A DNA stretch of 64,000 bases from the NCBI RefSeq assembly GCF_000383675.1, contig NZ_KB911820.1:1-64000 (forward strand). Direction: 5' to 3'. Shown in pieces: positions 40,790 through 56,849 of this stretch (its first letter is position 1; each line of letters begins with the position of its first letter). The notes under the pieces were generated by a model. It saw only the letters and a list, made by a program, of their open reading frames with translations. It searched no databases and was not told the DNA's origin. The DNA comes from Terracoccus sp. 273MFTsu3.1. Lineage in GTDB: Bacteria; Actinomycetota; Actinomycetes; Actinomycetales; Dermatophilaceae. The position numbers were made by a program, and so were the translations under genes.

Positions 40790-41758
40790 TCAGGGACCGG
40801 CGAGCTGGCCGGAGTCGACGGCCTGGACGATGCCGAGCACCGTCCGGAGGTAGGCCTGCGAGTGGTTGTAGGAGAGCACCGCCGCCGTGAGGTCGGCCGG
40901 GCGCGAGAGGTCGCGGCCACCGGCACAGAGGTAGTTGGCGGCGGCGAGCGCCGCGTCCTCGATGTTCTGCGGGTCCTCGACGCCGTCGCCGTTGCCGTCG
41001 GCGCCCCAGATGCGCCACGTGCCGGGGATGAACTGCATCGGACCCACGGCGCGGTCCCAGACCGGGTCCCCGTCGTAGCGGCCCCCGTCGGTGTCGCGGA
41101 TCGCCGAGAAGGAGCCACCCGAGAGCGCCGGACCCCGGACCGGCGGGACGGCGTCGTGCGACGCGTCGAGCGTCCGGCCGCGGAGCGAGGACGACTCCAC
41201 CTCGCCGATGGCGGCGAGCAGCATGACGGGGATGTGGCAGGCGCGCTGCCGCTCCGCGGCGGAGGCGTATGCCGCCCAGATGATCTCGTCCTTGGTGCGC
41301 GCAGTCGGCCGCGAGGTGCCCTTGGGAGGCACGGTGACGACGACGGGGATCTTGATGACCGCCTTGGGTCGCCAGGGCGTGGGGTTGGCGCTCGACCCGC
41401 CGCCCGGCTCGAGGGTCGCGGCAGGGACGGCGGGTGCCTGCTGCGCGAGGGTCGAGGCCGCGATGCGGATCTCGTCGAAGACGGGGAGCACGAGATCGCC
41501 TGCGACAGAGCCGAACCCACTGTCGAACGGCGGTGGTTCCGGCTGCGTCGAGCCATCGGTGCCGGATGTGGTCGCTGCGCCTCCCGGCACCAACGGTGAG
41601 AGCAGGGGTGCGGGTGTCGGGGTCGGTACGGACGGAGCGGTGTCGGCCATGGCCTGCGCTGCCGACCCGAGCAGGGCCGTCGCCACGGCGACGGAGGCGG
41701 CGACGGAGGCGGCCACGGCTCGTGCCGCGGTCCATCGTCTCGGCTTCGCCCCTGACAT
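40790..41758 (-). CDS. secreted lytic transglycosylase-like protein
   Basis: The product (322 aa) has a signal peptide (residues 1-35, cleaved after AMA), a Pro/Ser/Thr-rich linker, and a C-terminal lysozyme-like SLT domain. The catalytic Glu is in AAIGEVESS at about 184; VGPMQFIPGTWRIWG and the YNHSQAYL segment are typical. A DGNGDGVEDP insert resembles a calcium-binding loop. GGAGGG precedes ATG 41758. It probably cuts peptidoglycan. It lies 147 bases downstream of copCD and may or may not belong to that unit. Confidence 0.85.
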   Translation of the reverse strand: MSGAKPRRWTAARAVAASVAASVAVATALLGSAAQAMADTAPSVPTPTPAPLLSPLVPGGAATTSGTDGSTQPEPPPFDSGFGSVAGDLVLPVFDEIRIAASTLAQQAPAVPAATLEPGGGSSANPTPWRPKAVIKIPVVVTVPPKGTSRPTARTKDEIIWAAYASAAERQRACHIPVMLLAAIGEVESSSLRGRTLDASHDAVPPVRGPALSGGSFSAIRDTDGGRYDGDPVWDRAVGPMQFIPGTWRIWGADGNGDGVEDPQNIEDAALAAANYLCAGGRDLSRPADLTAAVLSYNHSQAYLRTVLGIVQAVDSGQLAGP

Positions 41759-41905
41759 GTCCGTGTCCCTCCTCGGGCGCGTGGCCGCCCACTCACCAGT
41801 ACAGCGCGAAATCCTCGACCGTGGCGACGAACGCCGAGTCCCACAGGACCACGGGCCATCCTGCCCTCCGGCCCGACTCGTCACGACGGGAGGGTCCCCC
41901 GGCCG

Positions 41906-43849
41906 TCACCGGCTCGCGGCGGATCGCGGCGCGACGGCACCGGACTCGTCCTGAGCCGCGTCGGTGCTGCCTGCGACGGCGGACGCCTGGGGCCGGGGCG
42001 CCCAGTGCCCGACAGGCGTACGCGTACGACCCGGTGCCGGAGACGGCTGACGGCGGCGCTTCACGAGGAGCCAGGCGGCGCCGATCACGGCCGCCACGGC
42101 GAGCACGGCGCACGCCAGGGCCAGCTGCCCCGAGACGGGCGCCCGCGACACGACGGGGGCCGGGTCGGAGGAGCTCGGGCCGACGACCCAGTGCACGGTG
42201 CTGCGCACGTCGTCGAGACCGCGCCGGTGCACGACGACATCGACGTCGACCGGTCCACCTGCCGGCAGCTCGAGGGCCGCCGACCAGCGCGACGGCGTCA
42301 CGGCGATCGCCGTCACCGGCGCCTGCGCCACGGCGGGACGCGCGTCGACGCCACCCGACGAGCTGCCCCGGACGGTGACGGACACGCCCGTGACGGGCCC
42401 GGGGGACGGTCGACGCGTGTCGAGCACGTCGATGAGGGCCACGCTGGCGCCCGGACGGTTTGGCCGCAGGGCGAGGGTCTGCTGGAGGTCGGCGACCGGC
42501 CGGTCGTCGATGACGCTCGGCGCCTGCTCGCTGACGAGGCGGGGCGAGACGGCGGGCTGCCCCGTGGCGAGGAGACCGGCGAGGGCGACGACGACGAGCA
42601 GGCCGACGGCCTCCACCGCGACGAAGGCTCGTCGGGCCTGCCCCTCCTGCAACCCCCGAGGGTGCAGGGCGCGAGTCGTCGCGAGCGCGACGAGCCCGAC
42701 GAGGCCGGCCAGGACGACCTTGGCGAGCAGGACGCGACCGTAGGTGGTGAGCAGCGCGGCGTCGACCGAGACGACGACGTCGCTTGCGAGGTAGACCCCG
42801 GTAACGGCGACGACGACGACCGAGACCGTGGCGGAAGTGCGGAAGCCCCGCAGGACCGAGCGGACGTCCGATCGCGAGAGTCCCAGCCGTACGGCGCGCA
42901 CGCCGAGCAGCGCGAGGGCGGCCACGGAGCCCGCCCACAGGAGGGCGGCGACGAGGTGCACCGTCGAGGTGACGACCCACGTCGGGCCGCCGCGGACCCC
43001 GAAGTGACCGATGCTCACGGTGAGCAGGCCCGCGCCGAGGAGCGCGGTCGTGGCTGCGACGTCGCGCGACACCCGCCCCGAGGCCGACCGGTCCGGCCGG
43101 TCCGGCCGGTTCGGCGGTGCCGGTCGGAGCGCGAGCGCCGCGCCGAGCAGGGCCGCCTCGCGCAGCCCCCACCGCAGCAGGTAGCCGGGGGTGAACGCCG
43201 CGGCGCCGAAGCGGACGAGGTCGACGAGCGCGACGGCCAGGGCCGCCGTCGCCCCGACGACGAGGAGACGGAACGCCTGACGGCGGAGCCAGGCCCGCGG
43301 CATACCGCTCGTCGGCTCCGGCAGGCGACGGAGCAGGCGTCCGACGACGACGGCGCCGAGCCCGGCGCCGATCCCCGCGAGGACGGCCCACCGGCCGACC
43401 AGCTCGAAGAGGTCCGGGTTGCTCTCGCTCGGACCGGCAGCCTGCACCTCGCTCTGCACGCCGAAGGCGAAGATGCCCGCGGACTCGTGGAGGTCGTCGC
43501 TCGACAGGGTCCGCCAGGACACGTGGTACGCGCCGACCCCGAGCGCGGGGATCGTGGCCACGACGGTCGCCGGCGCCTCCTGGTCCTCGTCGCTCTCGAC
43601 GAGCGTCATCGACGTCGGTGCCACGCGGTGACCGTCCGGCTCGGTGACGGTGATCTCGGTCGAGGCGAGGACGACGTGCTCGGTGAAGCGCAGCTCGATG
43701 CTGCGTGGGGCTGCCGCGAGGCTGGCCCCATCGGCCGGGTTGCTCGACGCGAGGTAGGCGTGGGCCGAGGCCGGGCCCGCGCCGAGGCCGACGAGCAGGG
43801 CCGTGCCGAGAGCCACCACCAGGGTGAGCAGGGCCCGTCGGAGGCCCAT
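41906..43849 (-). CDS. CopC-CopD fusion, copper binding and import
   Basis: The product (647 aa) has a signal peptide cleaved after Ala29, so mature residue 1 is His30 (HAYLASSNPADG). With His121 in DDLHESAG this forms the CopC copper-binding histidine pair. CopD follows at about 150-460, with eight or so helices. A third extracytoplasmic beta-rich domain (about 470-600), one more helix and a basic cytoplasmic tail complete it. CopCD fusions bring copper across the membrane. Here it is probably the copper supply or homeostasis component for the oxidases of the same operon. A TGATG junction overlaps the previous stop. Confidence 0.9.
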   Translation of the reverse strand: MGLRRALLTLVVALGTALLVGLGAGPASAHAYLASSNPADGASLAAAPRSIELRFTEHVVLASTEITVTEPDGHRVAPTSMTLVESDEDQEAPATVVATIPALGVGAYHVSWRTLSSDDLHESAGIFAFGVQSEVQAAGPSESNPDLFELVGRWAVLAGIGAGLGAVVVGRLLRRLPEPTSGMPRAWLRRQAFRLLVVGATAALAVALVDLVRFGAAAFTPGYLLRWGLREAALLGAALALRPAPPNRPDRPDRSASGRVSRDVAATTALLGAGLLTVSIGHFGVRGGPTWVVTSTVHLVAALLWAGSVAALALLGVRAVRLGLSRSDVRSVLRGFRTSATVSVVVVAVTGVYLASDVVVSVDAALLTTYGRVLLAKVVLAGLVGLVALATTRALHPRGLQEGQARRAFVAVEAVGLLVVVALAGLLATGQPAVSPRLVSEQAPSVIDDRPVADLQQTLALRPNRPGASVALIDVLDTRRPSPGPVTGVSVTVRGSSSGGVDARPAVAQAPVTAIAVTPSRWSAALELPAGGPVDVDVVVHRRGLDDVRSTVHWVVGPSSSDPAPVVSRAPVSGQLALACAVLAVAAVIGAAWLLVKRRRQPSPAPGRTRTPVGHWAPRPQASAVAGSTDAAQDESGAVAPRSAASR

Positions 43850-44373
43850 CAGAGCACCGGGACGTGCTCGAGGCGGAGGCCGCCGTACTCGATCGTCACG
43901 TCCTCACCGGCGCGGAGCGCGCCACCGGTGTTCTGGTAGACGAAGTAGTACGTCGCGCCCGCGCGGTTGATGTGCCCCTGTCGCATGACCGAGACGCGGT
44001 TCGTCGAGCCGTCACGGGCCTCGCTGCGCAGCACCGGCGGGTGCTTGACGTCGGCCTGGAAGCGGCTCGCCTTGTCGACGTCGAGGACGACGTAGCTGAC
44101 GGTGACGAGGCCCCCGTCGCCGACGACCGCGACCCGCGAGATGCGGACGCCGAGCGCCGTCTCCATGGCGGCGGAGTGCGGGACCGGTCGCCCCGGGTCG
44201 TCGCCGCCTCGCAGCGCACGGGCCCCGAGGAGACCGAGGACCGCGACGACGAGGACGGCGACGACGGCGAGCGCGGCCCTGGCCCGGCCCTCCCGACCCG
44301 TCCGCGTGGACGGGTCGGAGGGGCCGGAGGGACCGGCCGGCTGGACCGGCGGAACTGCTGTGGTGGTGCTCAT
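43849..44373 (-). CDS. single-pass membrane-anchored protein of the copper oxidase operon
   Basis: The product (174 aa) has a Pro/Ser/Gly-rich cytoplasmic tail, one membrane helix (about 33-53) and an extracytoplasmic beta-rich domain of about 115 residues ending in LRLEHVPVL. Two histidines and a methionine in VMRQGHINRAG, plus His in DVKHPP, could bind copper, but no known copper-chaperone motif is complete. I do not recognise the family. It lies between the third oxidase and copCD, sharing TGATG with the latter. Confidence 0.65.
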   Translation of the reverse strand: MSTTTAVPPVQPAGPSGPSDPSTRTGREGRARAALAVVAVLVVAVLGLLGARALRGGDDPGRPVPHSAAMETALGVRISRVAVVGDGGLVTVSYVVLDVDKASRFQADVKHPPVLRSEARDGSTNRVSVMRQGHINRAGATYYFVYQNTGGALRAGEDVTIEYGGLRLEHVPVL

Positions 44374-44441
44374 TCGGACTGCCCTCCGATGCTGCCGGCC
44401 GGGGTCACGGGCAGGTGACCCCGGCACGAGGTGGGACCGGA

Positions 44442-47400
44442 TCAGGGGATGCTGTTCCGGGTCGAGACGAAGCTGTCGAACCAGGCCGTGCCCGCCGTGC
44501 TCGACGTGGTGCCGGCGATGACCCCGAGACGAGCCGTCTCGATCTGCATTGCCGTGCCGGTGTTGTTGCCGGACCGCGTGTCACGCAGGGTGCCGTCGAC
44601 GCGGAGGGTCAGCGACCCGCCCGTCCCCTGCACCCAGTCGACGCGGATCGTGTGGTTGCCCGCCGCCAGGCTGAGCGCGTTGCTCGTCGTGGCGCCGAAC
44701 GCCGCGCGGTTCATCACGGTGCGGAGCGTCACCGCCCCCGTGCCGACACGGTGGTACTGCACGGCGAACGACTGACCCGTGGCGCTGCGCCCCTCGAACA
44801 CCGTCAGCCATGCCGTCGTGCTGGTGCCCGACGAGAGGGTGTTGGCGTTGAAGGAGAACTGCGCGCGGTAGGTCGTCTCGGCCGACGGCGTGGTGTCGGT
44901 GACGTACGCCGGGGTGGCCGAGCCGGTCGCGACCATGCCGTAGTTGCCGGTGCCGAGCGGTATGCCGGCAGCCAGGGCTGTCGTGACCGCACCGCTCCGC
45001 GCCGACCAGCTCGACAGCGAGGTGCTGTTGAACGTGTCGCTGAAGATCGCGTTGGGTCGGGTCACCTGGACCGTCACCGCGGACGCGTTGCTCCAGCTGC
45101 CTGCGGCGTCCTGCACGCGGAGGTTGAACGAGACGGTGCCGGGCTGGATGCCGGTCAGCGGGATCGCCGCCGACACCCCGGTGCCCGAGTCGGTGACCTG
45201 GACCCGCGTGGCCTTGCCGGCGCCGGGGTCGGTCGTGCCGGTCCAGAACTCGGCGCCCTGGAAGCGCGGCCCGACGTAGGTCGGGACCGGGGCCTCCGTG
45301 ACCGGCGCGGACAGTGTGACCGTGGCCGAGCCGTTGGTCGGGTTCGGCGAGGCCGTCACGGCCCCGAGGACCGGTGCCGTCTTGTCGACGAAGAGCCGCA
45401 CGAGGGCGTTGCTCGCGGTGAGGCTGCCCCAGTTGCCGGCGGCGTCCTTGCCGTGCACGTAGACCTGGTGCTCGCCGGGCGTCATCGCCTTGACCTGGGT
45501 CAGCGGGATGAGGCCGTAGACCTGCTCCGTCGGCGAGTCGAAGGCACCGTCGACGGCGATGAGGCTGAGGCCCTTGCCGAAGGTCGGTGTCGTGCTCGTC
45601 GGGTCGATGAAGGCCTCGCCGGCGAGCACCGGGCTCTGGAGCCCGTTGCCGGCGTCGCGGTCCTGCAGCTCGGCAGAGATCACGAGGTAGCCGGGGTAGG
45701 ACTTCGAGCTGGCGACCGCGTTGGTCGGGTTGGGCCCGACGGTGGCGGCGTTGACGGCCGGCGCGGTGAGGTCGACGGTGAGGTCGACGGGCACGGCCGG
45801 CCCCCAGATGTTCTGGGAGTTGCGGCTGTGGACCCACACCTGCGAGGTCCCCTCGCCGAGAGCGAGGACGTCCGCGGCCGGGATGGTCCCGGTCTCGGCG
45901 ACCTTCGTCGCGACCCGGTTGAGGGTCATCGCGTGGCCGGAGCCGTTGGCGCCGGCGGCCGCACCGAGGAAGTACTCGGCGCCGGTGATCGTGCCTCCGG
46001 CCGCGGTGTCGTCACCGGTCGCGTTGACCGTGACGGCGCCCTTGCCGCTCGCGGGCGACGGGCTCACCGAGAGTGCGACCGTCTGCGGGCCGGACTTGGC
46101 CACGTTGAGGATCACCGACCCGACGACGCCCCAGTTGCCGGCGGCGTCGAGACCGCGCACGAACACCGTGTGCTTCGTCGACGTCAGGCAGTGCAGGTCG
46201 ACGGGAGGCACCGGCGCAGCACAGTCCGCGGCGGTCGCCACGGCTGGGATCGTGCCACTGACCGTGGTGGTCTCGACGCCGAACGGCCCGGTCATCGGGA
46301 CGCCGCTGCCGACGCCCACGGTGACCGCGTCGTCGACGACGAACTCGGCCTGGCTGACGGTGCCGCGGCCCGTGGTCGCGTCACTCACGGTCGCGGTGAC
46401 GGTGACGGGGCCCGTGGCGTCCGTCGGGTTCGGGGTCGCGGTGATCCCTGTCGAGACCGGGCCCACTCCGTCGGTCGAGGGTGCGGGCGCGTTCGTGTCG
46501 AGGAAGGTCATCATGCCGCCGAACGCCACCGACAGCGGGTCGGCCGTGGTCTGGCCGGCGTTGTCGAGGCGGGCCGAGGACTCGTAGACCGCGATCTTCG
46601 ACTCGGGTCCGGACGGGACGGTGACGAGGGCGTCGACGCTGACCCCGGGGTCGACCGGCACGACGACGGACGGCTCCGGGAACGCGAGACCGTGTCCGTC
46701 GTGCGACAGGACGACCTGGTCGGCGCCGAGCGTGCTCATCGAGTGCAGCTCGGACCCGACGTTGACGTAGCGCAGCAGCACCGTGTGGCCCTGGTCGGTC
46801 GGCACGGGGTCGCTCGACGGCAAGGGCTTGCCGTTGATGAGCCGGTAGGCCGGGTGGAACTCACGCATGTCGAAGGACGTCGGGTGGGCGTTGAGAGCGG
46901 GGTCGATCTCGCTGAGCACGAGCACCGCCTCGTCCTGGTAGGTCTGGCCGTATGCCGTGCCGTCGCCGAGGACGACGAGCGCGCCGGCAAGACCCATCGC
47001 CACCTGCCGGGCTCCGCCCGAGGTGTGGCCGGCCTCGTAGAGGAACGTGCCGGGTCGGCCGGCGGTGAAGACGTAGCGCGCGGTCGCTCCCGGCGCGATG
47101 CCGGTCGTCGCGGCCGCCGTCGGCAAGCCCTCGCTGATGGACGCCGCGGGCTGCCCGGGCAGGGCGAGCGAGGTCGGCTCGTCGAGTCCGTTGTGCAGCG
47201 TCAGCACGACCCTGTCGCCCTGGCGGGCGATGATGGCCGGACCGGGCGCGGTGGCCGCCCCGGCCGAGGTCGTCGAGTAGCCCCAGATCGGGATCGGTTG
47301 TCCGAGAACCTGGTTCGTGCCGGGCTTGGCCCAGAGGTCGCACGCGACGATCTCAGGGTCGGGCGCGGAGGCCGGGGTGACGGTGCAGCCGGGCGTGTTC

Positions 47401-47603
47401 GGGGTCAGCTTGCCGACCGGTGCCGCCGGCGCGACCGCGGGTGCGGCGGCCGGGGCGACGGAGGAGGCGACGGCGGAGGCCGAGGTGGCCGCGGAGGCCG
47501 ACGAGACGGCATACGCGGTCGTGGCGGCGAAGGGGACGGTCGCGAGCGCGGCGGCGACGGCGGAGACGCCGAGGCGGTGCCGGAGGCTGGGTCGAGAGGT
47601 CAT
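44442..47603 (-). CDS. degenerate multicopper-oxidase domains fused to Ig-like repeats and a LamG-like end
   Basis: The secreted product (1053 aa) has a signal peptide ending near TTAYA, an Ala-rich linker, and two cupredoxin domains (about 75-365) aligned by PGPAIIARQGDRVVLTLHN, LYEAGHTSGGARQVAMGL and FGGMM. The copper motifs are largely lost: TSLALPGQ replaces the HWHG site and GSELHSMSTLG replaces HPHG. From about 370 to 855 come repeated Ig-like modules (VSPSPASGKGAVTV, HSRNSQNIWGP, VHGKDAAGNWGS). The C-terminal 200 residues are a concanavalin/LamG-like domain. It is probably a structural or carbohydrate-binding partner of the two other oxidases. Confidence 0.82.
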   Translation of the reverse strand: MTSRPSLRHRLGVSAVAAALATVPFAATTAYAVSSASAATSASAVASSVAPAAAPAVAPAAPVGKLTPNTPGCTVTPASAPDPEIVACDLWAKPGTNQVLGQPIPIWGYSTTSAGAATAPGPAIIARQGDRVVLTLHNGLDEPTSLALPGQPAASISEGLPTAAATTGIAPGATARYVFTAGRPGTFLYEAGHTSGGARQVAMGLAGALVVLGDGTAYGQTYQDEAVLVLSEIDPALNAHPTSFDMREFHPAYRLINGKPLPSSDPVPTDQGHTVLLRYVNVGSELHSMSTLGADQVVLSHDGHGLAFPEPSVVVPVDPGVSVDALVTVPSGPESKIAVYESSARLDNAGQTTADPLSVAFGGMMTFLDTNAPAPSTDGVGPVSTGITATPNPTDATGPVTVTATVSDATTGRGTVSQAEFVVDDAVTVGVGSGVPMTGPFGVETTTVSGTIPAVATAADCAAPVPPVDLHCLTSTKHTVFVRGLDAAGNWGVVGSVILNVAKSGPQTVALSVSPSPASGKGAVTVNATGDDTAAGGTITGAEYFLGAAAGANGSGHAMTLNRVATKVAETGTIPAADVLALGEGTSQVWVHSRNSQNIWGPAVPVDLTVDLTAPAVNAATVGPNPTNAVASSKSYPGYLVISAELQDRDAGNGLQSPVLAGEAFIDPTSTTPTFGKGLSLIAVDGAFDSPTEQVYGLIPLTQVKAMTPGEHQVYVHGKDAAGNWGSLTASNALVRLFVDKTAPVLGAVTASPNPTNGSATVTLSAPVTEAPVPTYVGPRFQGAEFWTGTTDPGAGKATRVQVTDSGTGVSAAIPLTGIQPGTVSFNLRVQDAAGSWSNASAVTVQVTRPNAIFSDTFNSTSLSSWSARSGAVTTALAAGIPLGTGNYGMVATGSATPAYVTDTTPSAETTYRAQFSFNANTLSSGTSTTAWLTVFEGRSATGQSFAVQYHRVGTGAVTLRTVMNRAAFGATTSNALSLAAGNHTIRVDWVQGTGGSLTLRVDGTLRDTRSGNNTGTAMQIETARLGVIAGTTSSTAGTAWFDSFVSTRNSIP

Positions 47604-47614
47604 CGTTGTCGTCC

Positions 47615-48955
47615 TCAGCTCGTCGGGCAGCCGGCGGGCGGGTCGATGCGGAAGACCGTCATCATGCCGCCGAAGGCTGCGCCGTAGTTGGTCGCCTGCT
47701 GGAGCGCGTGGCTGTGGGCCACGTGGTAGTACTCGCCGCACTCGTTGTTCACGGTGATGTTCGACGGGTAGGTGCCCTTCGTGCCGAGGTAGGGGCTCTC
47801 GCTGAACCACGTGTCGGCACCCACGAGCAGCTGGTCGGTGATGACGGGCAGCTGCGTCGGGATCGGGTTCGACGTCGCGTCCCAGTGCTCGACGTCGCGC
47901 CAATCCATCAGCGCGTCGACGGTCTGCCCGGGCATGACGTCGATGTCGTACTTGAGGTACGAGAGATCCTGTGGCGCAGTGGCGCTCGTGCCCTGGAGGG
48001 CGTGCCCGTCCTTGTTGACGACGCGTTCGTCACTCCCGTGCGGGTGGAAGGGGTAGTTGCCCCGTCCCGCGTTGAGGTAGCGGATGACCGCCGGGAGCGG
48101 GTTGCTGGCCGCGTCGTACGGCTTGATGTGCACGAGGGCGCCGTAGGGCTGGCTCGGCAGCCACGACGCGTTGTTGGGCGCGAGGGTGTCGGGCATGCTG
48201 CGGCCGTTGATGAGGTAGTAGCGCGCGTTGTAGGCGCCCCAGTCGACCGGCTGCGAGCGCTCGACGGCCAGGTGCACCTCGGGGTCGATCTCCGAGAGGA
48301 GGAAGACGTACTCGTGCTGCGGGTTGAAGGCCGAGTCGGGGCGGGCGTTGACCTGCCCGGCCGCGCCTGCGGGTCGCACGACGAGGGCTCCGTAGAGGCC
48401 CATCTGCTGCTGCTTCGTCACATCGGTGCCGCTCGAGTAGAGGTACGTCCCGGGCGAGCCGGCCGTGAAGGTGTAGGTCACCGAGCCGCCCGAGGCACCG
48501 GCCGGCTGGACCATCGAGGTGAGGGAGCCGCCCGTGTCGAGCTGCGGCTGGGCCGGGTTGCCGTTCGCCTTGACCGCCTTCTGGCCCGGGAAGAGGATCG
48601 AGGTCGCCTCCGGCAGGTCGTTGTGCAGGATGACGGTGACCGGCTGGCCGGACGTGACGCAGAGGACCGGGCCGGGCAGCTGGAACTGTCCGGAGCTCAT
48701 CCCGTAGCCCCACATGTAGATCGAGTTGCCGTCGGGGGTCGAGACGTAGCCCGTCCGCGCGGTGAGCGAGAAGGTCTGCTGCGGGTCCGTCTGGCAGAGC
48801 AGCCCCTCGGACGTCGCAGCCTGGGCACCGGCGGTCGAGCCCACGGCCACGGCGGCCACGAGGGCGCCGACGGCCGCGAGGATGCCCGTGCGCCGTCGGG
48901 TACGCGCGGCACTCGCCGCGTCGCCCGGGTGGCGTCGTGATCGGTTGAGTCGCAT
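47615..48955 (-). CDS. multicopper-oxidase-like protein retaining only second-domain copper motifs
   Basis: The secreted product (446 aa, signal peptide to about residue 47) has two cupredoxin domains. In domain 1 the HWHG position reads LFPG (121-124) and the HCH position reads YSSG (173-176), so ligands are lost. Domain 2 keeps HPHG (His304, His306) and HVAHSH (His411, His414, His416). No Cys for a type-1 copper is seen next to these. It therefore supplies only half of a trinuclear site. The gene ends 11 bases before the Ig-fused oxidase gene and starts 20 bases after the Tat oxidase gene. GGAGGACGATC precedes the ATG. Confidence 0.86.
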   Translation of the reverse strand: MRLNRSRRHPGDAASAARTRRRTGILAAVGALVAAVAVGSTAGAQAATSEGLLCQTDPQQTFSLTARTGYVSTPDGNSIYMWGYGMSSGQFQLPGPVLCVTSGQPVTVILHNDLPEATSILFPGQKAVKANGNPAQPQLDTGGSLTSMVQPAGASGGSVTYTFTAGSPGTYLYSSGTDVTKQQQMGLYGALVVRPAGAAGQVNARPDSAFNPQHEYVFLLSEIDPEVHLAVERSQPVDWGAYNARYYLINGRSMPDTLAPNNASWLPSQPYGALVHIKPYDAASNPLPAVIRYLNAGRGNYPFHPHGSDERVVNKDGHALQGTSATAPQDLSYLKYDIDVMPGQTVDALMDWRDVEHWDATSNPIPTQLPVITDQLLVGADTWFSESPYLGTKGTYPSNITVNNECGEYYHVAHSHALQQATNYGAAFGGMMTVFRIDPPAGCPTS

Positions 48956-48975
48956 GATCGTCCTCCGTCGGCTCG

Positions 48976-50268
48976 TCAGGTGTTGGGCTGGGTCTGGGGC
49001 CCGTAGGTGCCGGGCGCGCCGACGCGGAGGACGGTCATCATGCCGCCCCAGCCGGGTCCCCCGCCGTTGCCCAGATAGGCGTAGTTGCGGTCGTAGAGCA
49101 GGTACTCGCCGGGCTGGTGGGGCGTGACGAGCACGTCCCGGCTCTCGCCGGGCCCCACGTCGACGGTGTTGGTCTCGAGGTAGTTCGTGTAGCCGTCGCG
49201 GCCGCGGAGCAGGCTCGCGTCCTTGGCGATGACCTGCATGTCGACGTTGTCGAGCGTCAGGGCGTGGTTCTGGTAGCCGAGGTTCGACATCCGCAGCAGC
49301 ACCGTCTCGTTGACGTTGCAGGTGATGAGCGAGCTGATCGGCTGGTACTGCAGCCGACCCGCCGCCGCCGACGTCGGGTTGCCCCCCGGCGCGATGGTGT
49401 CGGGGTAGCCGCGCCCGTTGAGCAGCCAGAAGCTCGGTGCGTAGTCGGTCCAGTCGCTGACCTGGATGTGGGCGTCGCGGTAGTGGGCGGCCGACCACAG
49501 CTCGGTGATCATGAAGGCGAACTCGCGGTCGTAGCGCGTGCTGCCGTCGCCGTCGTTGTACGCGTACTTGGTGCCGATCGGGTGGCCGGCCAGCGGCGTC
49601 TTGTTCTGCTTCGGCCGCACGAAGACCATGCCGGTCATGCCCATCTGCACGTGCTCGACGTCCTCGAAGTGGCAGTGGTACATGTACGTGCCGGCGTCGC
49701 GGGGGCGGTAGAAGTAGGACAGGTCGCGCCCGATCGGCACGGCGAGGGAGAGCTCCGGCACGCCGTCGAAGAGCGGGATGGCATTGACGAAGCCGTGCCA
49801 GTGCAGCGTGTGACCGTCGAAGAGGTCGGGCCGCATGACGAGTCCGAGGTTGGACAGCGTGATCGTCACCTCGTCCAGCTCGTCGAAGGCGAGCATCGGC
49901 GCCGAGATCTGCGCCTTGCCGCGCGTGGCCGCCACCTGGGTCGCCGACATGCCCGTGACGTCACGGAAGCCGAAGACGTAGGTGTCGAAGGGCGACGGCG
50001 CGAGCGAGTCGGGGAAGAAGGGCAGGTCGTCGGGCGAGCCGGCCGGCATGCTGACCCAGCCGTCGGTGCCGGCCAGGTGCACCGACTTGGCGGGGCCCGT
50101 GGCGGCGGCCTGTACGACGGTCGGGCGGGCGGCCTGCTGTCCGAAGCTGAGGCGCGTGCCGAGGAAGACGCTGCCCACGGCGCCCGCCCCACCCAGCATG
50201 ACGGCTCGTCGGCCGAGACCTGAGCCCGCCGTGCGCCGTGCGGCGTCTGAGCGTGATTCGTCGGTCAT
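48976..50268 (-). CDS. Tat-exported multicopper oxidase retaining first-domain copper motifs and type-1 site
   Basis: The product (430 aa) has a twin-arginine signal (GRRAVMLGG, 19-27). Domain 1 keeps HTLHWHG (His153, His156, His158) and YHCHFEDVEHVQMGM (His198, Cys199, His200, His206, Met211), giving both HxH motifs and a full type-1 copper site. Domain 2 has NHALTLDN and YDRNYAYLGNGGG where copper motifs would be, so the second-domain HxH pairs are missing. This is the complement of the neighbouring oxidase at 47615-48955. GGAG precedes ATG 50268. Confidence 0.88.
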   Translation of the reverse strand: MTDESRSDAARRTAGSGLGRRAVMLGGAGAVGSVFLGTRLSFGQQAARPTVVQAAATGPAKSVHLAGTDGWVSMPAGSPDDLPFFPDSLAPSPFDTYVFGFRDVTGMSATQVAATRGKAQISAPMLAFDELDEVTITLSNLGLVMRPDLFDGHTLHWHGFVNAIPLFDGVPELSLAVPIGRDLSYFYRPRDAGTYMYHCHFEDVEHVQMGMTGMVFVRPKQNKTPLAGHPIGTKYAYNDGDGSTRYDREFAFMITELWSAAHYRDAHIQVSDWTDYAPSFWLLNGRGYPDTIAPGGNPTSAAAGRLQYQPISSLITCNVNETVLLRMSNLGYQNHALTLDNVDMQVIAKDASLLRGRDGYTNYLETNTVDVGPGESRDVLVTPHQPGEYLLYDRNYAYLGNGGGPGWGGMMTVLRVGAPGTYGPQTQPNT

Positions 50269-50387: not shown

Positions 50388-53300
50388 TTACGGGTAGTAC
50401 TGGTCGGAGCCGGAGTCGAACCGTCTTGCCGTGCCGACGACGGTTGGCCGTTGCTGGTTGTCGATGTCGCGCGCGGCGGCATTGACGACTGCGGTCCACT
50501 GGGTGGTGATGCCGAAGAGCGTCTGGCTGCCGTAGGTGACCGTCGTCGTCCCGCGTCCCTTGCCGTATGCCGTGGCTGCCGTCCCCGAGAGGTGGTAGTC
50601 CGCCCGCAGGCGTGGCGGCAGCAGGGCCGTGACGATGGCCGCCTCCCGGAAGGCCGGGAAGGTGCGGGCCGCCAGGACGGTGACGGTGAGGTCGGGCGTC
50701 GGGTCCTTGAACCCCGGCGTGTCGCTGACGGTGACGCCCACCCCTCCGTCGGTGCCTGTCGTCGTCTGGATGACGCCGCCCACCGGGTGGAGCGTGCCCG
50801 GGCCTCCGACGACGGCCATGTCCCACGTGTCGACCGAGTTGGCCGTGCCGTCGGGCAGGGTGCCGCCGATGCCGTAGACGTAGCCGCCGACGTAGGTGCC
50901 GGCGCGGTTGTCGTTGAAGACGTTGTCGAGGAGCACCGGCTTGCTGAAGGTCGACTGCCCGGTGACCTTGACGAGCGCGAAGGCGCCTGCGGTGAGGCCG
51001 CTGCTGTTGAGCTTGGCCATGAGCGGGTCGCTGTTCGGTCCGGTCGCGAGGCCGGCGGGGGCCGGCAGTCCGTCCGAGGTGACCGCGGTCGCCGTCGTCA
51101 TGTTGCCGGCGACGGTGTTGTCGACGATGGTGACGAACGGCGCGTCGTCGAGGGCGATGCCGCCACCCTCGTGGGCCGACACGTTGTTGGTGATCGTGTT
51201 GTTCGTGATGGCGATCGTCTGCGGGTCGGACCGGGTGACGTGCGTGCCGGCCACCTGGAGCAGTCGGATGCCGCCGCCGTCGTCGCTCGCGAGGTTCGCG
51301 TCGATGACGTTCGCGTCGATCGTCGCCGCACCGGTGCCGGGGCTGAGTCCGGTCGGGCTCGACGGCAGCTCGCCGGCGAGCATCACGGCGCCACCCTCGT
51401 CGTAGGAGCTGTTGAACCAGATGGTGTTGCCGGAGACGGTGCCTCCGTCGCTGCCACCCGCGTTCGACATGTAGCCGAAGGCCGTCATCGCGCCGCCGTA
51501 CTCCGCGGAGAAGTTGCCGCAGATGGCGTTGTGCACGACCTTGTAGCCGTCGCTGCCGGTGAAGAGCCCGATGCCGCCGGCGAGGTTGGTCCCGCCGTTG
51601 TTGAGCACCTGGTTGTCGGCGATGAGCGTGTCGTAGTTGCGGTTGTCACCGGTGTACGGCGTGCCCACTCGGATGCCGCCGCCGTAGCTGCCGCTGTTGC
51701 CGACGATGACGTTGTCGGTGATGCGGACGCTCCGGTTGTTGTTGTGCAGGTAGATGCCGCCGCCCTGGGTGACGAGGGCACCTGCCGCGCCGTACGGCGT
51801 CGTGACGCCGCCGGTCAGCACGTTGACGTTGCCGGGGAAGTCCGACTGGGCCCCGCCGGTGACCTGCAGCCCGTCGATGGCCACGGGGTAGGCCGCGTCG
51901 TTGACGGAGGCGCGCGTCGGGTCGTCGAGCACGGTGATCGTCGCGGCGTCGGGCACGTCGAGCTCGCCGCTGTAGGTCAGCGTCCCGAGCCGGGTGATCC
52001 AGGCCGTGCCACCGGGCAGGTCGGGGCTGAAGCCGGACCCGTCGATGATCGAGCCGGGCACCCACTGCTGCGAGCCGTCGGCATTCGTCGTGAAGCCGCC
52101 CGGGCCCACGCCCTGGATCGCGACACGGTGGTGGACGAGGAGGTTCTCGTTGTACTCACCGCGCGGGTTGAGCGCGGTCGCGGCACCGGGCCAGACGACG
52201 ACGAGCCAGTGGCGCCTCGTCGAGGACGGCGTGGCAGCCTCGAGCCCCTTCTGGACGGTGTCGTACTGGCTGTTCGGTCGGACCTCGATGACGTTCGGGT
52301 TGTAGGTGGTCGAGGCTCCCGAGGCGGGTGTCGTCCCGAGGTTCCAGATGGTCAGGCCGTTGTACGTCGAGCGCTTCGACGCGTTCGTGACGCCGACCTT
52401 GAGGGGACCACGAGCGGTCGTGGCCGTCGACGTGAAGGTCGGGACGGTGAAGGTGATGCTCGTGTCCGACCAGGTGCCGTACGTCGTCACGGGGACGTTC
52501 GTACCGGCACTGTTCGTCAGCGTCACCGAGCCGGTGCCGCGGGTCGCCCCGAAGCCGGTGCCCTGGATGGTCACCGTCCGGCTGGCGTCGGTGGACCGTA
52601 GGTACGGCCGGCTCACGGCGAACAGCTGCGGGTCGGTCGTGCCGAGGTTGCAGCGCGCCGGGTTCGACGCAGTGGTCCCCGGGGCGAGCACGGTCGCGGC
52701 CGCCTGGGTGGGCGCGGTGTCGGTCACGGTGTAGAGGCCGGGCCAGCCCTGGAAGTTGGTGCTGATCGTCCGGTAGGCCGGGTTGTAGTCCGGGTTCGGG
52801 TCACCCGGCCCGCCGGGGTCGTTGCCCGTGAAGCGGTACATGTTGGGGCAGGGACCGGCCGGGACCGGGCAGTTGTACGTCCCGGTCGAGGGCTCCAGGG
52901 CCTCGTAGAAGCCGTTGAAGTCGGTGTGCGTCGTGTCGACGAGACGTCCGCTCCAGTCGTAGAGGCCGACGGGGACGTTGGGCAGGCCCTGGGCCTCGCC
53001 GTAGTTGGCGCTCCGCTTGTCGAGGGACAGGCCGAGGTCGTTGATCGTCAGACCCCAGAAGTGCGTGGGGATCGGGACGGGCGTGAACAGGTTGAAGTTC
53101 GGTGCGACGGTCTGTCCACTGCGGACGGTGATGAGCTTGGAGTCGCACAGGGGCCGGTCCTGGCCCTCGAAGGGGCTGCCGCCGCCGTCGAGGAAGGCCG
53201 GGTTCGTGACGCGCACCGTGTGGAGCGCGCCCGCGCAGCCCGAGATGATGCCGGCTCCCTGCGACGGGGGCTGGGTCGGGGGCAGCGGGTCGTTGCCGGT

Positions 53301-55862
53301 GCCGGGGCCGTCGGAGGCCGCCTCGGCCACGGTCGGCGGGAAGTTCTCCTGGGAGAGGTAGGTGTCGCCGTCGAAGACGTTGACGTCCTCCTCGCGGGTG
53401 ACCTGGTACATCGGCTTGCCGTCGACCGGGTCCTTGGGCACCTCGACGGCGACGATGTAGTCACCCGCGTCGAGGCCGCCGAAGCCGTAGTTGCCGTTGA
53501 CCGTCTGGCCGGCCGCCCCGGGCGTGTTGTCGGACGGGCCGACCTGCACTCCCATCATCGGTGCCTCGACGCAGAGGTTGTTGGCGTCGGGACCGGACTC
53601 GGGCAGGGCGAGCTGGTCGGTCAGCTCGGTGCCGTCCCACTGGCGAGCGGTGCAGCCCCGCGGCGGAGCCCACTCCTCGCTCGGGTAGTGGTCCTGGACC
53701 TCGGCGCCCTTGACGAGCGCGCCGCGCTCGGGGTCGGGGTTCGGGATGGTCGCCGGAGCGGTGGGGTCGGTGTCGTGGGCCGGGTTGGGCACCGACAGCG
53801 GCACGATCGCCTTGCCCTGGCGGCACGCGTTCGCCTTGTCCTCGGCCGTCGTGGCCGAGCAGGGCACGGAGGCGTAGACGTGGACGTTCACGTCGGGGAT
53901 GCCGGGCTGGTAGTCCTCGCTCACCGCGTCGGCCGGGTCGAGCTCGTTGCGCGTCACGTCGTAGGACACGGTGGCGGCGATGCCGCCGTTCTCGTTCGTC
54001 GCGTACGGCTCGACGCCCCAGTCGATGCGGCCCGAGAGGCCGATGACGGGCAGGAAGTCGATGTCGACGAGGCCGCCGAGGATGGTTGTCGGGGAGTCCT
54101 CGTTGTCCGCCTGGTAGGTCACCCCGGTGGTCCGGTAACGGGTGTTGAACGCCTCGAGGACGAGCCACTTGCTGAGCGGGTAGCCCTCCTTGATGTCGTA
54201 GACGCCGTCGTCGCCGGTGTTCACGAGGTTCGTGTACTGGTCCATGAGCGAGTTGTCGCGCTCGCGGACCGTCAGGGTGAAGCCGGGTACCGGCGCCTCG
54301 CCCGGGTCGCGCTTGCCGTTGCCGTTGTCGTCGACGAAGACCGTGCCACGCACGTGCGTGAACCAGCCGACGAGCATCTTGTTGCCGACGTCGACGAGGT
54401 CTCCGCCGGACACCTCGACGTTGAAGCTCCACAGGATGTAGTCCTGTGCGTCGTCCCAGAGGGTCAGCTGGTAGGTGCCGTCGGGGACGTTCTTGATGTC
54501 GAACGAGCCGTTGGCCGCGCCCCGCCCTACGTAGACGGCCGCGTCCCCGGCGGTGAGGTCGGAGAGCGCCACCCACGGCGACGCGATCGGACCGGCGTAC
54601 TTGGCGCCCGCCCAGCCGGTCTCGGGGACGACCTGCCCGTTCTGCCCGCCGATGTAGGGCAGGCCGGCGACGGCGACGCCCTTGACCTCGCCGGTCGCGG
54701 AGGACGCGGGCATGGCCTTGACGCGGACGAAGCCGAACTGGGTCGCGGGCACAGGCTCGGCGCCCTTGATGAACTCGGTGTCGAGGCCGGTGTCGCCCTC
54801 CTGCACCCAGATGTCGTGGTCGTGCCCGCCCTCGAGGGTCGTCGTCTGGACCCAGCCGGCCTGGCCGGCGGGCGGGGAGACGGTCGCGCCGTAGCGGTTC
54901 GGGCCGAGGTTGGGGATCGTGATGACGCCCGAGGCGTCGCTCGTGCACTTGCCGGTGGAGCGGGTCGTGTCGACGACCGGCTTGCCGTCGGTGCCGAAGA
55001 GCATGCGGCCCGCCGAGTCGTGCCGGTAGACGGTGCACAGGGCGTTGCCGTAGTAGTCGGTGCTCACCGGTCCGAGGACGTCGGAGAGGTTGCCGGTGAA
55101 GCCGGACAGACCGCGCTCGGCGTCGGCCTCGTAGGTCCCGTCCGCGGGGACGTTGTCGTTGAAGACCTGGATCTTGATCGTGGCGAGCGGCAGGGGCAGC
55201 GGCTGCATCTCGACGGCGACGAGGCCCTTCAGCCCCGCCTTCACGGTGAAGTGCGCGCCGTCGATCTTGTAGCCGTCTGCGGTGACGGAGATGAGGTACT
55301 TGCCCGGGTCGAGGCCCTCGAGGACCTTCGCGGAGTCGAGGTCGGCCTCGGAGCCCTGCGCGACGATCTTCGAGAAGCCCGACGTGGGCCGCACCGAAGG
55401 CCACGGGCAGCTGTCGGCATACGGCTCCGTCGGGTCACCCGCGGCGGGGTTGGCCGGCTTCGTGCTGCCGCCGGGCGCCCGCGAGGGGAGGCACTTGTCG
55501 AGGAGCGGTGCGTCCGCCGTCCCCGGGTCGCCGGTGCTGTCCTCGTTGACCATCCACTGGTAGGCCGTGACGTGGTCGCCCTTCTGGATGAAACCCGCGC
55601 CGGTGCCGACCGACCGTGCGCTCGCGACGGTCAGCGTGATGCACCCCTTGCCTGCCGCGGTCGTCGACGGACAGGGTCCTCCCGTCGGGGTGGTCACCGC
55701 CGGTGCCGCGGCCTGTGCCGCGGCGGGCGCCGCGGGCGCCACCGCCGGTCTCGGTGCGGCGGCCGCTGCTGCCAGCGGTCCACCGACCTGAGCCACTCCG
55801 GCGATGGCGAGTGCGGTCAGTCCGGCGATGATCGGGACGCAACGCCTACGCAGCCTTGGCAT
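50388..55862 (-). CDS. giant secreted protein with SdrD-like B, IPT/TIG and beta-helix domains
   Basis: The product (1824 aa) has a signal peptide (about 1-36), then repeated carboxypeptidase-regulatory/Cna-B-like domains. The clearest, GTVFVDDNGNGKRDPGEAPV at about residue 502, has the SdrD calcium-loop signature. An IPT/TIG domain (VTIQGTGFGATRGTGSVTL) lies near 1080-1160, and a right-handed beta-helix at about 1330-1600 with rungs such as ITNNTITNNVSAHEGGGIAL. There is no LPXTG or membrane anchor at the C-terminus. It is the first gene of the oxidase operon, so it probably acts as an extracellular scaffold or substrate-binding partner. The start is ATG 55862; GTG 55868 is possible. Confidence 0.88.
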   Translation of the reverse strand: MPRLRRRCVPIIAGLTALAIAGVAQVGGPLAAAAAAPRPAVAPAAPAAAQAAAPAVTTPTGGPCPSTTAAGKGCITLTVASARSVGTGAGFIQKGDHVTAYQWMVNEDSTGDPGTADAPLLDKCLPSRAPGGSTKPANPAAGDPTEPYADSCPWPSVRPTSGFSKIVAQGSEADLDSAKVLEGLDPGKYLISVTADGYKIDGAHFTVKAGLKGLVAVEMQPLPLPLATIKIQVFNDNVPADGTYEADAERGLSGFTGNLSDVLGPVSTDYYGNALCTVYRHDSAGRMLFGTDGKPVVDTTRSTGKCTSDASGVITIPNLGPNRYGATVSPPAGQAGWVQTTTLEGGHDHDIWVQEGDTGLDTEFIKGAEPVPATQFGFVRVKAMPASSATGEVKGVAVAGLPYIGGQNGQVVPETGWAGAKYAGPIASPWVALSDLTAGDAAVYVGRGAANGSFDIKNVPDGTYQLTLWDDAQDYILWSFNVEVSGGDLVDVGNKMLVGWFTHVRGTVFVDDNGNGKRDPGEAPVPGFTLTVRERDNSLMDQYTNLVNTGDDGVYDIKEGYPLSKWLVLEAFNTRYRTTGVTYQADNEDSPTTILGGLVDIDFLPVIGLSGRIDWGVEPYATNENGGIAATVSYDVTRNELDPADAVSEDYQPGIPDVNVHVYASVPCSATTAEDKANACRQGKAIVPLSVPNPAHDTDPTAPATIPNPDPERGALVKGAEVQDHYPSEEWAPPRGCTARQWDGTELTDQLALPESGPDANNLCVEAPMMGVQVGPSDNTPGAAGQTVNGNYGFGGLDAGDYIVAVEVPKDPVDGKPMYQVTREEDVNVFDGDTYLSQENFPPTVAEAASDGPGTGNDPLPPTQPPSQGAGIISGCAGALHTVRVTNPAFLDGGGSPFEGQDRPLCDSKLITVRSGQTVAPNFNLFTPVPIPTHFWGLTINDLGLSLDKRSANYGEAQGLPNVPVGLYDWSGRLVDTTHTDFNGFYEALEPSTGTYNCPVPAGPCPNMYRFTGNDPGGPGDPNPDYNPAYRTISTNFQGWPGLYTVTDTAPTQAAATVLAPGTTASNPARCNLGTTDPQLFAVSRPYLRSTDASRTVTIQGTGFGATRGTGSVTLTNSAGTNVPVTTYGTWSDTSITFTVPTFTSTATTARGPLKVGVTNASKRSTYNGLTIWNLGTTPASGASTTYNPNVIEVRPNSQYDTVQKGLEAATPSSTRRHWLVVVWPGAATALNPRGEYNENLLVHHRVAIQGVGPGGFTTNADGSQQWVPGSIIDGSGFSPDLPGGTAWITRLGTLTYSGELDVPDAATITVLDDPTRASVNDAAYPVAIDGLQVTGGAQSDFPGNVNVLTGGVTTPYGAAGALVTQGGGIYLHNNNRSVRITDNVIVGNSGSYGGGIRVGTPYTGDNRNYDTLIADNQVLNNGGTNLAGGIGLFTGSDGYKVVHNAICGNFSAEYGGAMTAFGYMSNAGGSDGGTVSGNTIWFNSSYDEGGAVMLAGELPSSPTGLSPGTGAATIDANVIDANLASDDGGGIRLLQVAGTHVTRSDPQTIAITNNTITNNVSAHEGGGIALDDAPFVTIVDNTVAGNMTTATAVTSDGLPAPAGLATGPNSDPLMAKLNSSGLTAGAFALVKVTGQSTFSKPVLLDNVFNDNRAGTYVGGYVYGIGGTLPDGTANSVDTWDMAVVGGPGTLHPVGGVIQTTTGTDGGVGVTVSDTPGFKDPTPDLTVTVLAARTFPAFREAAIVTALLPPRLRADYHLSGTAATAYGKGRGTTTVTYGSQTLFGITTQWTAVVNAAARDIDNQQRPTVVGTARRFDSGSDQYYP

Positions 55863-56111: not shown

Positions 56112-56177
56112 CCTTTCCCACTCCGCGTTCCCACGCTCAGATCCATACTTGGCGACAGATCGGGGAGGGGGACTCTC

Positions 56178-56849
56178 ATGGCAACAGTCATGGTGGTCGA
56201 CGACGAGGAACGCGTACGCACGTTGCTGGCGAAGTCGTTGTCGTCCCAAGGACACTCGGTGGTGACCGCTGCAACGGCCAACGCCGCGATAGACCGGCTC
56301 GCGTCGAGGGACGTCGATCTCGTCGTGCTCGACCTCGTGATGCCCGGGCTCAACGGCATGGCCGTGCTCAACGCGATCAAGGAGCGCAAGCAGACGACGC
56401 CCGTGATCGTGCTGTCGGGTGTCACCGACGTGGGAGCACGCGTCGAGGCGCTCGACCGCGGCGCCGTCGACGTCGTGTCCAAGCCGTTCAGCCTGACGGA
56501 GCTCATGGCTCGCGTCCGGCGCAACGTCGGGGCGGCGCGTGCTCCCGCCGACGACGGCTTCCTCGAGGTGGCCGGCATACGTCTCGACGTGGGACGCCGT
56601 CGCGCGACGTTCCGGTCGCGCAGCGCCTCGCTCACCGAGCGGGAGTTCAGCCTGCTCGCGCACCTCATGCGACGCGCCGGCCAGGTGTGCCACAGGGAGG
56701 AGCTGCTCCACGACGTCTGGCACCTCGACTTCGACCCGGGCAGCAACGTCGTCGAGGTGTGCGTCGGCAGGCTCCGCGCCAAGCTCGGCCAGGACATCCC
56801 GGTCGAGACGTTGCGCGGCGTCGGGTACGGGCTCTACGAGGACGCCTGA
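56178..56849 (+). CDS. OmpR-family response regulator
   Basis: The product (223 aa) has a receiver domain with Asp8/Asp9, phospho-acceptor Asp52 (LVVLDLVMPG) and a conserved Lys in VVSKPFS. A winged helix at about 125-220 follows (SLTEREFSLLAHLMRRAG, VVEVCVGRLRAKLG). GGGGAGGGGGA precedes ATG 56178. It is divergent from the giant copper-oxidase operon, and the direct repeats between them are the likely binding sites, so it probably controls that operon and itself. Confidence 0.93.
   Translation: MATVMVVDDEERVRTLLAKSLSSQGHSVVTAATANAAIDRLASRDVDLVVLDLVMPGLNGMAVLNAIKERKQTTPVIVLSGVTDVGARVEALDRGAVDVVSKPFSLTELMARVRRNVGAARAPADDGFLEVAGIRLDVGRRRATFRSRSASLTEREFSLLAHLMRRAGQVCHREELLHDVWHLDFDPGSNVVEVCVGRLRAKLGQDIPVETLRGVGYGLYEDA

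Follow-up and report, generated by a model that had tools for sequence, protein, structure and literature searches.

The window analysed here, a stretch of 64,000 nucleotides from the soil bacterium Terracoccus sp. 273MFTsu3.1 (assembly GCF_000383675.1, contig NZ_KB911820.1, positions 1 to 64,000), carries on its minus strand three adjacent genes for chains that match Cu-oxidase families in a Pfam search, designated A, B and C, directly behind the gene for a giant repeat protein, D. The copper ligands expected of one two-domain multicopper oxidase appear to be divided between A and B, with C holding neither half. A sequence-only reading of the window had given coordinates, strand and starts for A, B and C that proved correct on re-reading; the three-gene set that it described was incomplete, however, because D, immediately upstream and part of the same conserved set, had been overlooked. 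The features of this core set, read along the minus strand, are as follows.

50388-55862, minus strand: D, giant repeat protein, directly upstream of A
48976-50268, minus strand: A, two-domain multicopper oxidase chain of 430 residues, whose domain 1 carries the type-1 copper set and one half of the trinuclear ligands
49792-49812, minus strand: motif HTLHWHG of A, with H153 (type-1 ligand) and the trinuclear ligands H156 and H158; the orthologue at locus L105 places it opposite HTIHWHG of 3g5w
49636-49677, minus strand: motif HCHFEDVEHVQMGM of A, with H198 and H200 (trinuclear) and C199, H206 and M211 (type-1), aligned through the L105 orthologue
47615-48955, minus strand: B, two-domain multicopper oxidase chain of 446 residues, with the other trinuclear half in domain 2 and a ligand-free domain 1
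48038-48046, minus strand: HPH of B (within FHPHG), H304 and H306, where the L105 orthologue lines up with HTH in the second domain of 3g5w
47708-47716, minus strand: HSH of B (within HVAHSH), H414 and H416, Ser standing in for the type-1 Cys; the L105 orthologue lines up here with HDH of 3g5w, in a short stretch scoring just 5.2 bits by itself
44442-47603, minus strand: C, ligand-less two-domain cupredoxin chain of 1053 residues with a long C-terminal extension

Domain 1 of A holds a complete type-1 copper set plus two His-x-His (HxH) motifs, and no HxH motif occurs in its domain 2. In B, TSILFPG and YSSG occupy the places of the domain-1 ligand motifs, so that this domain has no ligands, and domain 2 carries two HxH motifs, FHPHG and HVAHSH, with Ser rather than Cys between H414 and H416. 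Neither the domain-1 nor the domain-2 ligand set is present in C.

This partition is conserved among orthologues. In 79 aligned A sequences, H153, H156, H158, C199, H200, H206 and M211 were each present in all 79 and H198 in 78, while H304, H306, H414 and H416 were each found in all of the 76 aligned B sequences. No His column rose above the 97% threshold in 74 aligned C sequences. We then considered 100 non-identical A loci from four phyla, "non-identical" meaning only that exact duplicates of A were removed (L171 and L173 were dropped); close relatives, for example L028, L057 and the window, count separately, and loci from the search of 98 relatives described below are not part of this set. 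All eight A ligands were intact in 97 of them, the exceptions being L050 (Leu at H198), L157 (genome G436) and L167 (frame broken). All four B histidines were present in 94/95 B rows, with L116, cut by a contig end, as the exception, and a Cys between H414 and H416 occurred in none of the 95. The alignments therefore bear out what had been read from the window by itself: A keeps HTLHWHG and the HCH...H...M ligands in domain 1 and lacks domain-2 HxH motifs, B has LFPG and YSSG in domain 1 and HPHG and HVAHSH in domain 2, C is nearly ligand-free, and A and B jointly supply exactly four HxH motifs, across phyla.

Among solved structures, 3g5w and 2zwn were the best Protein Data Bank matches for A of the window, as well as for A and B of L105. 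At the Bacillota locus L105, where the A, B and C genes are in one frame, both A and B align to these structures across both domains. L105 A keeps the first-domain HxxHxH and HCH...H...M motifs and has other residues at the second-domain HxH places; L105 B keeps HxH twice in the second domain and has lost the first-domain ligands, the stretch with its last HxH scoring only 5.2 and 7.8 bits on its own. Because A retains the first-domain and B the second-domain ligands of these enzymes, A plus B is equivalent to one site of such an enzyme. The sequence-only reading had named, as a finding that would count against it, an alignment in which each chain alone carried all four motifs in divergent form; in the family alignments, and in the comparison of L105 with 3g5w and 2zwn, neither chain does.

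We use the names type B and type C as in PMC13151041. A, B and C have the type C layout of two cupredoxin domains per chain, related to 3g5w and 2zwn, and the N-terminal type-1 set (His, Cys, His, Met) occurs in A only, B and C being without it. Four HxH motifs in a single chain, a further type C feature, were not found (A has two, B two and C none). Other authors may use these letters otherwise. Six cupredoxin domains in one polypeptide, as in a ceruloplasmin-like enzyme, were not found either, since A, B and C lie in separate frames at the loci examined. Searches with NCBIfam models left A far below the cut-offs for the copper nitrite reductase NirK (TIGR02376; 35.1 bits versus 296.3) and for the three-domain oxidase models copper_res_A (39.8 of 478.95 bits) and CueO (21.5 of 525 bits).

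The genes of the set are closely linked. A search of 98 relatives with A found an orthologue in 10 genomes (its own included) at 53-100% identity, with B directly downstream in 10/10. In a scan of named genomes, one genome per species, the best 80 of 99 confirmed stretches were taken and 78 loci kept: B follows A in 75, C is present in 73 and D precedes A in 74, and every missing B, C or D sits at a contig end. The closest named relatives in this one-genome-per-species scan belong to Terrabacter, with 98% identity in A. Searching 296 Actinomycetota genomes with B returned the window and two others, one of them with two copies, and A and D lie beside B in all four copies. Genomes thus do not routinely carry one member of the A/B pair (10/10; 75/78 with the rest at contig edges; 4/4), which answers the co-occurrence check that had been proposed from the window. 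Among 23 stretches examined for gene order, D-A-B-C held throughout, with L106, L107, L116 (where C falls beyond the contig end), L157 and L167 as exceptions. Five of the 100 A loci have no B row; three of these are at contig ends and two are real absences.

Further searches with A extended the distribution. Against 299 genomes of the phylum of Thermincola (G387), A gave 26 matches at E <= 1e-20, comprising 14 orthologue-like ones (9.3e-78 or better) and 12 much weaker ones (4.6e-28 at best), and it gave eight among 301 genomes from the phylum to which G392, a Chloroflexota genome, belongs. The gene set is found in Moorella, Thermincola, Peptococcaceae and a Clostridiales bacterium (L095, L096, L098, L099, L101 and L102). 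In all, the set was found in four bacterial phyla, and its ligands are divided in the same way in each. Two copies in one genome were seen in Oscillochloris sp. ZM17-4 and in G301 (L064, L172, L114, L115).

One genome offers a natural loss experiment. In the Bacillota genome G436 (L157) only A and C remain; a search of the assembly with one piece each of B and D found neither. The two ligand motifs of its A are HTIYWEG and HCYFETVEHLQMGM, that is, H156Y, H158E and H200Y, so three of the four trinuclear histidines are lost and H153, C199, H206 and M211 are all kept. The disappearance of these histidines together with B matches the prediction of a trinuclear site shared by A and B. Frames are interrupted at some other loci: G561 (L167), in which B is missing, A and D are each in two frames and C is short, is a broken locus or an assembly fault, D is in two frames in L165, and A is in overlapping frames in L166.

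A quick tree of 112 proteins, drawn from 34 of the 100 loci, the window and seven oxidases from plasmid records (some perhaps not two-domain in build), separated A, B and C into three groups, each set off by a branch of its own with support of 100, 93 and 93, of which only the first reached the starred level. The seven other oxidases stand apart (95). Similar groups recur inside A, B and C, all three chains are present in each of the four phyla sampled, and the branches of C are the longest of the three. A single origin of the split, followed by joint inheritance or joint transfer, is the simplest account of this topology.

Distances and co-variation between chains were calculated over 92 loci, excluding L157, L167, loci without A, B or C and those with >35% gaps. 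After correction of the mutual information, the five strongest inter-chain couplings all join domain 1 of A to domain 2 of B, at residues beside the copper motifs. A tree-aware measure of co-substitution assigned 18 of the top 50 inter-chain pairs to these two domains, against 9.9 +/- 2.8 under a conservation-matched null and a background share of 8.6%. Co-variation thus weakly supports contact between domain 1 of A and domain 2 of B.

The third chain and the giant protein show a connection of their own. Pfam recognises only the first domain of C in the window and both domains in L105, and it returns Cu-oxidase_3 alone, so that the Ig-like repeats earlier ascribed to C were not found. The tail of C beyond about residue 372 is short or absent in Bacillota, where the stop-to-stop frame of C spans 313-443 residues in 19/22 rows; the other rows are L086 (556 residues), L094 (two frames, the first of 198) and the broken L167 (171). 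D matches the Pfam families SdrD_B, carboxypeptidase-regulatory-like, fn3_3 and TIG, together with a right-handed beta-helix family below its curated cut-off (23.1 of 25.9 bits). Its reading frame is open from 55931 and probably starts at an ATG at 55862, which is followed, as judged by eye, by a signal-peptide-like stretch. In D of L105 (357-4892), the beta-helix part has a weak match to the NosD family of copper proteins (33 bits against a cut-off of 300).

In Cupriavidus metallidurans CH34 (L106) and Paraburkholderia sp. 22B1P (L107) the third gene encodes a protein of about 2700 residues in which the C domains are followed by D, giving the order A, B, C fused with D. This is the only fusion seen among the examined loci, and as a single chain in Betaproteobacteria it physically ties C to D. 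A role for C as a structural subunit is plausible, given this fusion and given that C is found with A and B at every locus where the contig runs far enough, the broken one excepted. No features are annotated in the stretches concerned of the CH34 and 22B1P records, and in the portions consulted of the CH34 genome paper (PMC2864759) the oxidase terms sought are absent from the main text and the passage on secretion does not include this locus. Upstream of A in CH34 lies a secretin-like gene (L106:4355-6559; identified by reading its sequence), a hint of a dedicated export route.

Lastly, the surroundings of the core set contain further recurrent genes. The order on the minus strand is D, A, B, C, E and CopC-CopD, with gaps of 119, 20, 11 and 14 bases and then a one-base overlap, and a candidate regulatory pair diverges from it on the plus strand.

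43849-44427, minus strand: E, conserved protein of 192 residues with one hydrophobic segment, directly behind C
41906-43849, minus strand: CopC-CopD fusion, candidate copper supply (Pfam CopC 2.1e-19, CopD 2.3e-10)
about 56112-56849, plus strand, divergent: candidate response regulator, read from sequence
about 56849-57997, plus strand, divergent: candidate histidine kinase, read from sequence

Neighbours were counted by direct searches with the genes of the window, automatic clustering of flanking open reading frames having been swamped by seeming antisense frames of high-GC genes. A homologue of E, which matched no Pfam or NCBIfam family, stands directly behind C on the same strand in 47/67 loci with room for it, and a CopC-CopD homologue lies on the same strand within 6 kb or less behind C in 38/67. 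Their recurrence points to dedicated copper handling. Homologues of the response-regulator frame were found at 38 loci, the window counted in. An open reading frame at 40790-41884 on the minus strand reads like an SLT-type lytic transglycosylase. Elsewhere in the same genome are other large multicopper oxidases (G000:C8:76985-77272, L005; G000:C1:137648-139057, L004 and L006): one open frame of 1608 residues shows several cupredoxin-type motifs that follow hydrophobic stretches, and a second, of 1168 residues, has two Cu-oxidase_3 matches.

N-termini differ between lineages. In rows from outside Bacillota, a crude measure of hydrophobicity finds a strongly hydrophobic stretch ahead of the domain of B, and mostly ahead of those of A and C too; in Bacillota rows such stretches are absent or weak, with the exception of B of L101, where the stretch precedes the likely start. 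Read by eye, the N-terminus of A looks twin-arginine-like in the window, which was the Actinomycetota sequence read, and in the Chloroflexota loci L058, L062 and L066; it looks Sec-like in Cupriavidus, and the Bacillota chains begin nearly at the domain. A sporulation link through SpoIVA in Bacillota was considered and rejected: SpoIVA was present in 16/16 carriers of the gene set but also in 19/20 non-carriers and, being near-universal in both, does not discriminate between them.

Starting from the ligand partition, its conservation, the gene linkage, the C-D fusion and the paired loss, which can be read in the sequences themselves, we infer a physical assembly, a stoichiometry, a chemistry and a location for this system. 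A, B and C would be paralogues, products of duplication of a two-domain multicopper oxidase gene, that came to share out the work among them. Domain 1 of A would provide the type-1 copper site (H153, C199, H206 and M211) and trinuclear ligands H156, H158, H198 and H200, and domain 2 of B the remaining trinuclear ligands H304, H306, H414 and H416. In known two-domain enzymes three identical chains form a ring, and each set of trinuclear histidines is drawn half from domain 1 of a chain and half from domain 2 of its neighbour (PMC13151041, in excerpt); since their site clusters between neighbouring chains and the ligands of A and B are complementary, one four-copper site is predicted to form at the interface between domain 1 of A and domain 2 of B. 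C is most likely the third chain that closes the ring, in which case the interfaces of B domain 1 with C domain 2 and of C domain 1 with A domain 2 would, by symmetry, be ligand-free. The six cupredoxin domains would then make up an asymmetric heterotrimer that has one active site, is linked through C to the giant D outside the membrane or on the cell surface and is probably supplied with copper by CopC-CopD. The type-1 copper of A would take up electrons from the substrate, and O2 would be reduced with them at the shared site; Mn(II), Fe(II), Cu(I) and phenols are candidate substrates.

We hold it very likely that A and B share the trinuclear site, and on the sequence evidence we regard the wider proposal as likely: a type-C-like oxidase that is heteromeric, probably an A-B-C heterotrimer, and whose one active site lies where domain 1 of A meets domain 2 of B. 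That the particle is a 1:1:1 A-B-C trimer we favour with less assurance. The sequence-only reading had suggested that A and B may form a hetero-oligomer with the active site at their interface; the complementary, conserved ligands and the linkage sustain this proposal, and its physical assembly we infer from sequence.

Several observations weigh against these conclusions. L050 has Leu at H198 despite the presence of B, the paired loss is known from one genome (G436) only, and B of the window matches solved two-domain laccases mainly through its ligand-less first domain. The lineages of several carriers (Moorella, Thermincola, Peptococcaceae and the Clostridiales bacterium), which we take to be anaerobic, are not obvious places for an O2-reducing enzyme. 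Pairwise distances correlate strongly between chains (r = 0.946 for A-B, 0.851 for A-C and 0.883 for B-C), but the comparison has no control gene and is descriptive. In raw mutual information, A domain 1 with B domain 2 makes up 62 of the top 200 inter-chain pairs, and shuffling of partners inside clades leaves that count unchanged (null means 60.5 and 63.5; 12 shuffles each). Because the shuffled counts are not lower, the signal sits on deep branches, where within-clade shuffling is a poor null; raw mutual information was dropped as decisive proof of the contact, the shuffles being equal and the matched null leaving a modest excess. The co-substitution excess itself shrinks with depth, to 25 versus 17.7 +/- 3.8 in the top 100 and 40 versus 32.1 +/- 5.3 in the top 200, where a pair that the ring does not predict, A domain 2 with C domain 2, is equally in excess (20 versus 13.7 +/- 3.4). 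The other pairs predicted by the ring show no excess in the top 50 (A domain 2 with C domain 1, 1 versus 2.9; B domain 1 with C domain 2, 2 versus 1.6).

Other arrangements of the same chains can be envisaged. A and B alone might form the active enzyme, as an A3B3 ring or as AB dimers, with C outside the ring as an adaptor that holds the enzyme on D; the absence of conserved ligands from C, its branches, the longest of the three, and the C-D fusion in Betaproteobacteria would all suit such a role. However, C keeps the two-cupredoxin layout, and has little more than that in most Bacillota rows; it still stands beside A in G436 after the loss of B and D, which suggests contact between A and C; and two-domain enzymes form trimers (PMC13151041, in excerpt). 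We therefore consider an adaptor outside the ring unlikely. A more radical separation, in which A carries electrons on its own as a blue-copper (type-1) protein and B binds copper apart from it, so that the histidines of the two never meet, seems to us very unlikely. A of G436, with its type-1 ligands and no intact trinuclear set, indicates that a type-1-only role is possible, but the trinuclear-type histidines of A and B are as strictly conserved as the type-1 set, and it is in a genome without B that A lost three of its four trinuclear histidines.

The presence of CopC-CopD in the same gene set could instead be taken to suggest a function in copper storage or sensing, A and B each forming a homotrimer of its own whose copper sites are incomplete and do not catalyse. 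It would then be hard to see why two incomplete sets sum to exactly the eight histidines of one trinuclear site, and the conserved type-1 His-Cys-His-Met set would be needless for storage, so we judge this highly improbable. Simple decay, with A and B as degenerate relics of ordinary two-domain oxidases, might be read into the loss of B and D at G436, into the state of G561, where B is missing, C is short and the frames of A and D are each split in two, and into the interrupted frames of D in L165 and A in L166. It is contradicted by the retention of the same partition in four phyla, at nearly all loci whose frames are intact, and decay would not spare the same half of each chain; we find it scarcely credible.

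The heteromeric oxidase that we prefer looks like a two-domain multicopper oxidase that has become an apparent obligate heteromer. To our knowledge, known multicopper oxidases carry all ligands in one gene. The Bacillus Mnx complex, MnxE-MnxF-MnxG, places a multicopper oxidase within a multi-subunit assembly, as proposed here, and its oxidase ligands are all in MnxG. In 3g5w and 2zwn, presumably homotrimers, all motifs lie in one chain, whereas here they are split over two genes and a ligand-less third paralogue is added. Ceruloplasmin resembles the proposed A-B-C ring in having six cupredoxin domains with a single trinuclear site; it is one chain, whereas the ring would consist of three, with only one type-1 copper set. 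Ceruloplasmin serves as an example of a six-domain multicopper oxidase in PMC10707984 (in excerpt). The type C two-domain oxidases 3g5w and 2zwn, in the wording of the parts of PMC13151041 consulted, share with A and B two cupredoxin domains per chain and ligands at aligned positions. Type-B laccases (Streptomyces SLAC and Cellvibrio CjMCO) are trimers whose trinuclear site is shared by domain 1 of one chain and domain 2 of its neighbour, as proposed here, but unlike this system they have the type-1 copper in the C-terminal domain and are homotrimers encoded by one gene (PMC13151041, in excerpt). Among the papers listed by searches of open-licence PMC literature, none, judged by title or abstract opening, describes a heteromeric multicopper oxidase with a shared cluster, or this gene set, although a description could exist elsewhere.

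There is perhaps an even chance that the whole is to be seen as ceruloplasmin in several chains: an oxidase of three chains and six cupredoxin domains, its one active site built by two proteins and its third, catalytically dead subunit attached to a giant surface protein, with a single origin and later spread to four phyla. Since signal peptides seem to be lacking from A, B and C of Bacillota, the enzyme may there be produced by the mother cell and deposited on the spore. CotA and MnxG are made and placed in this way, and a spore location for the present system would be a conjecture by analogy with them.

If the proposed arrangement is true, the trinuclear cluster would be held by the A and B pair and by neither chain alone, and a trinuclear copper site made obligately by two gene products would constitute a new multicopper oxidase architecture. 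It would also provide an example of the step from homotrimer to heterotrimer in cupredoxin evolution, and a caution that chains such as B and C are easily mistaken for degenerate oxidases. The conserved operon offers a genetic handle for finding the substrate.

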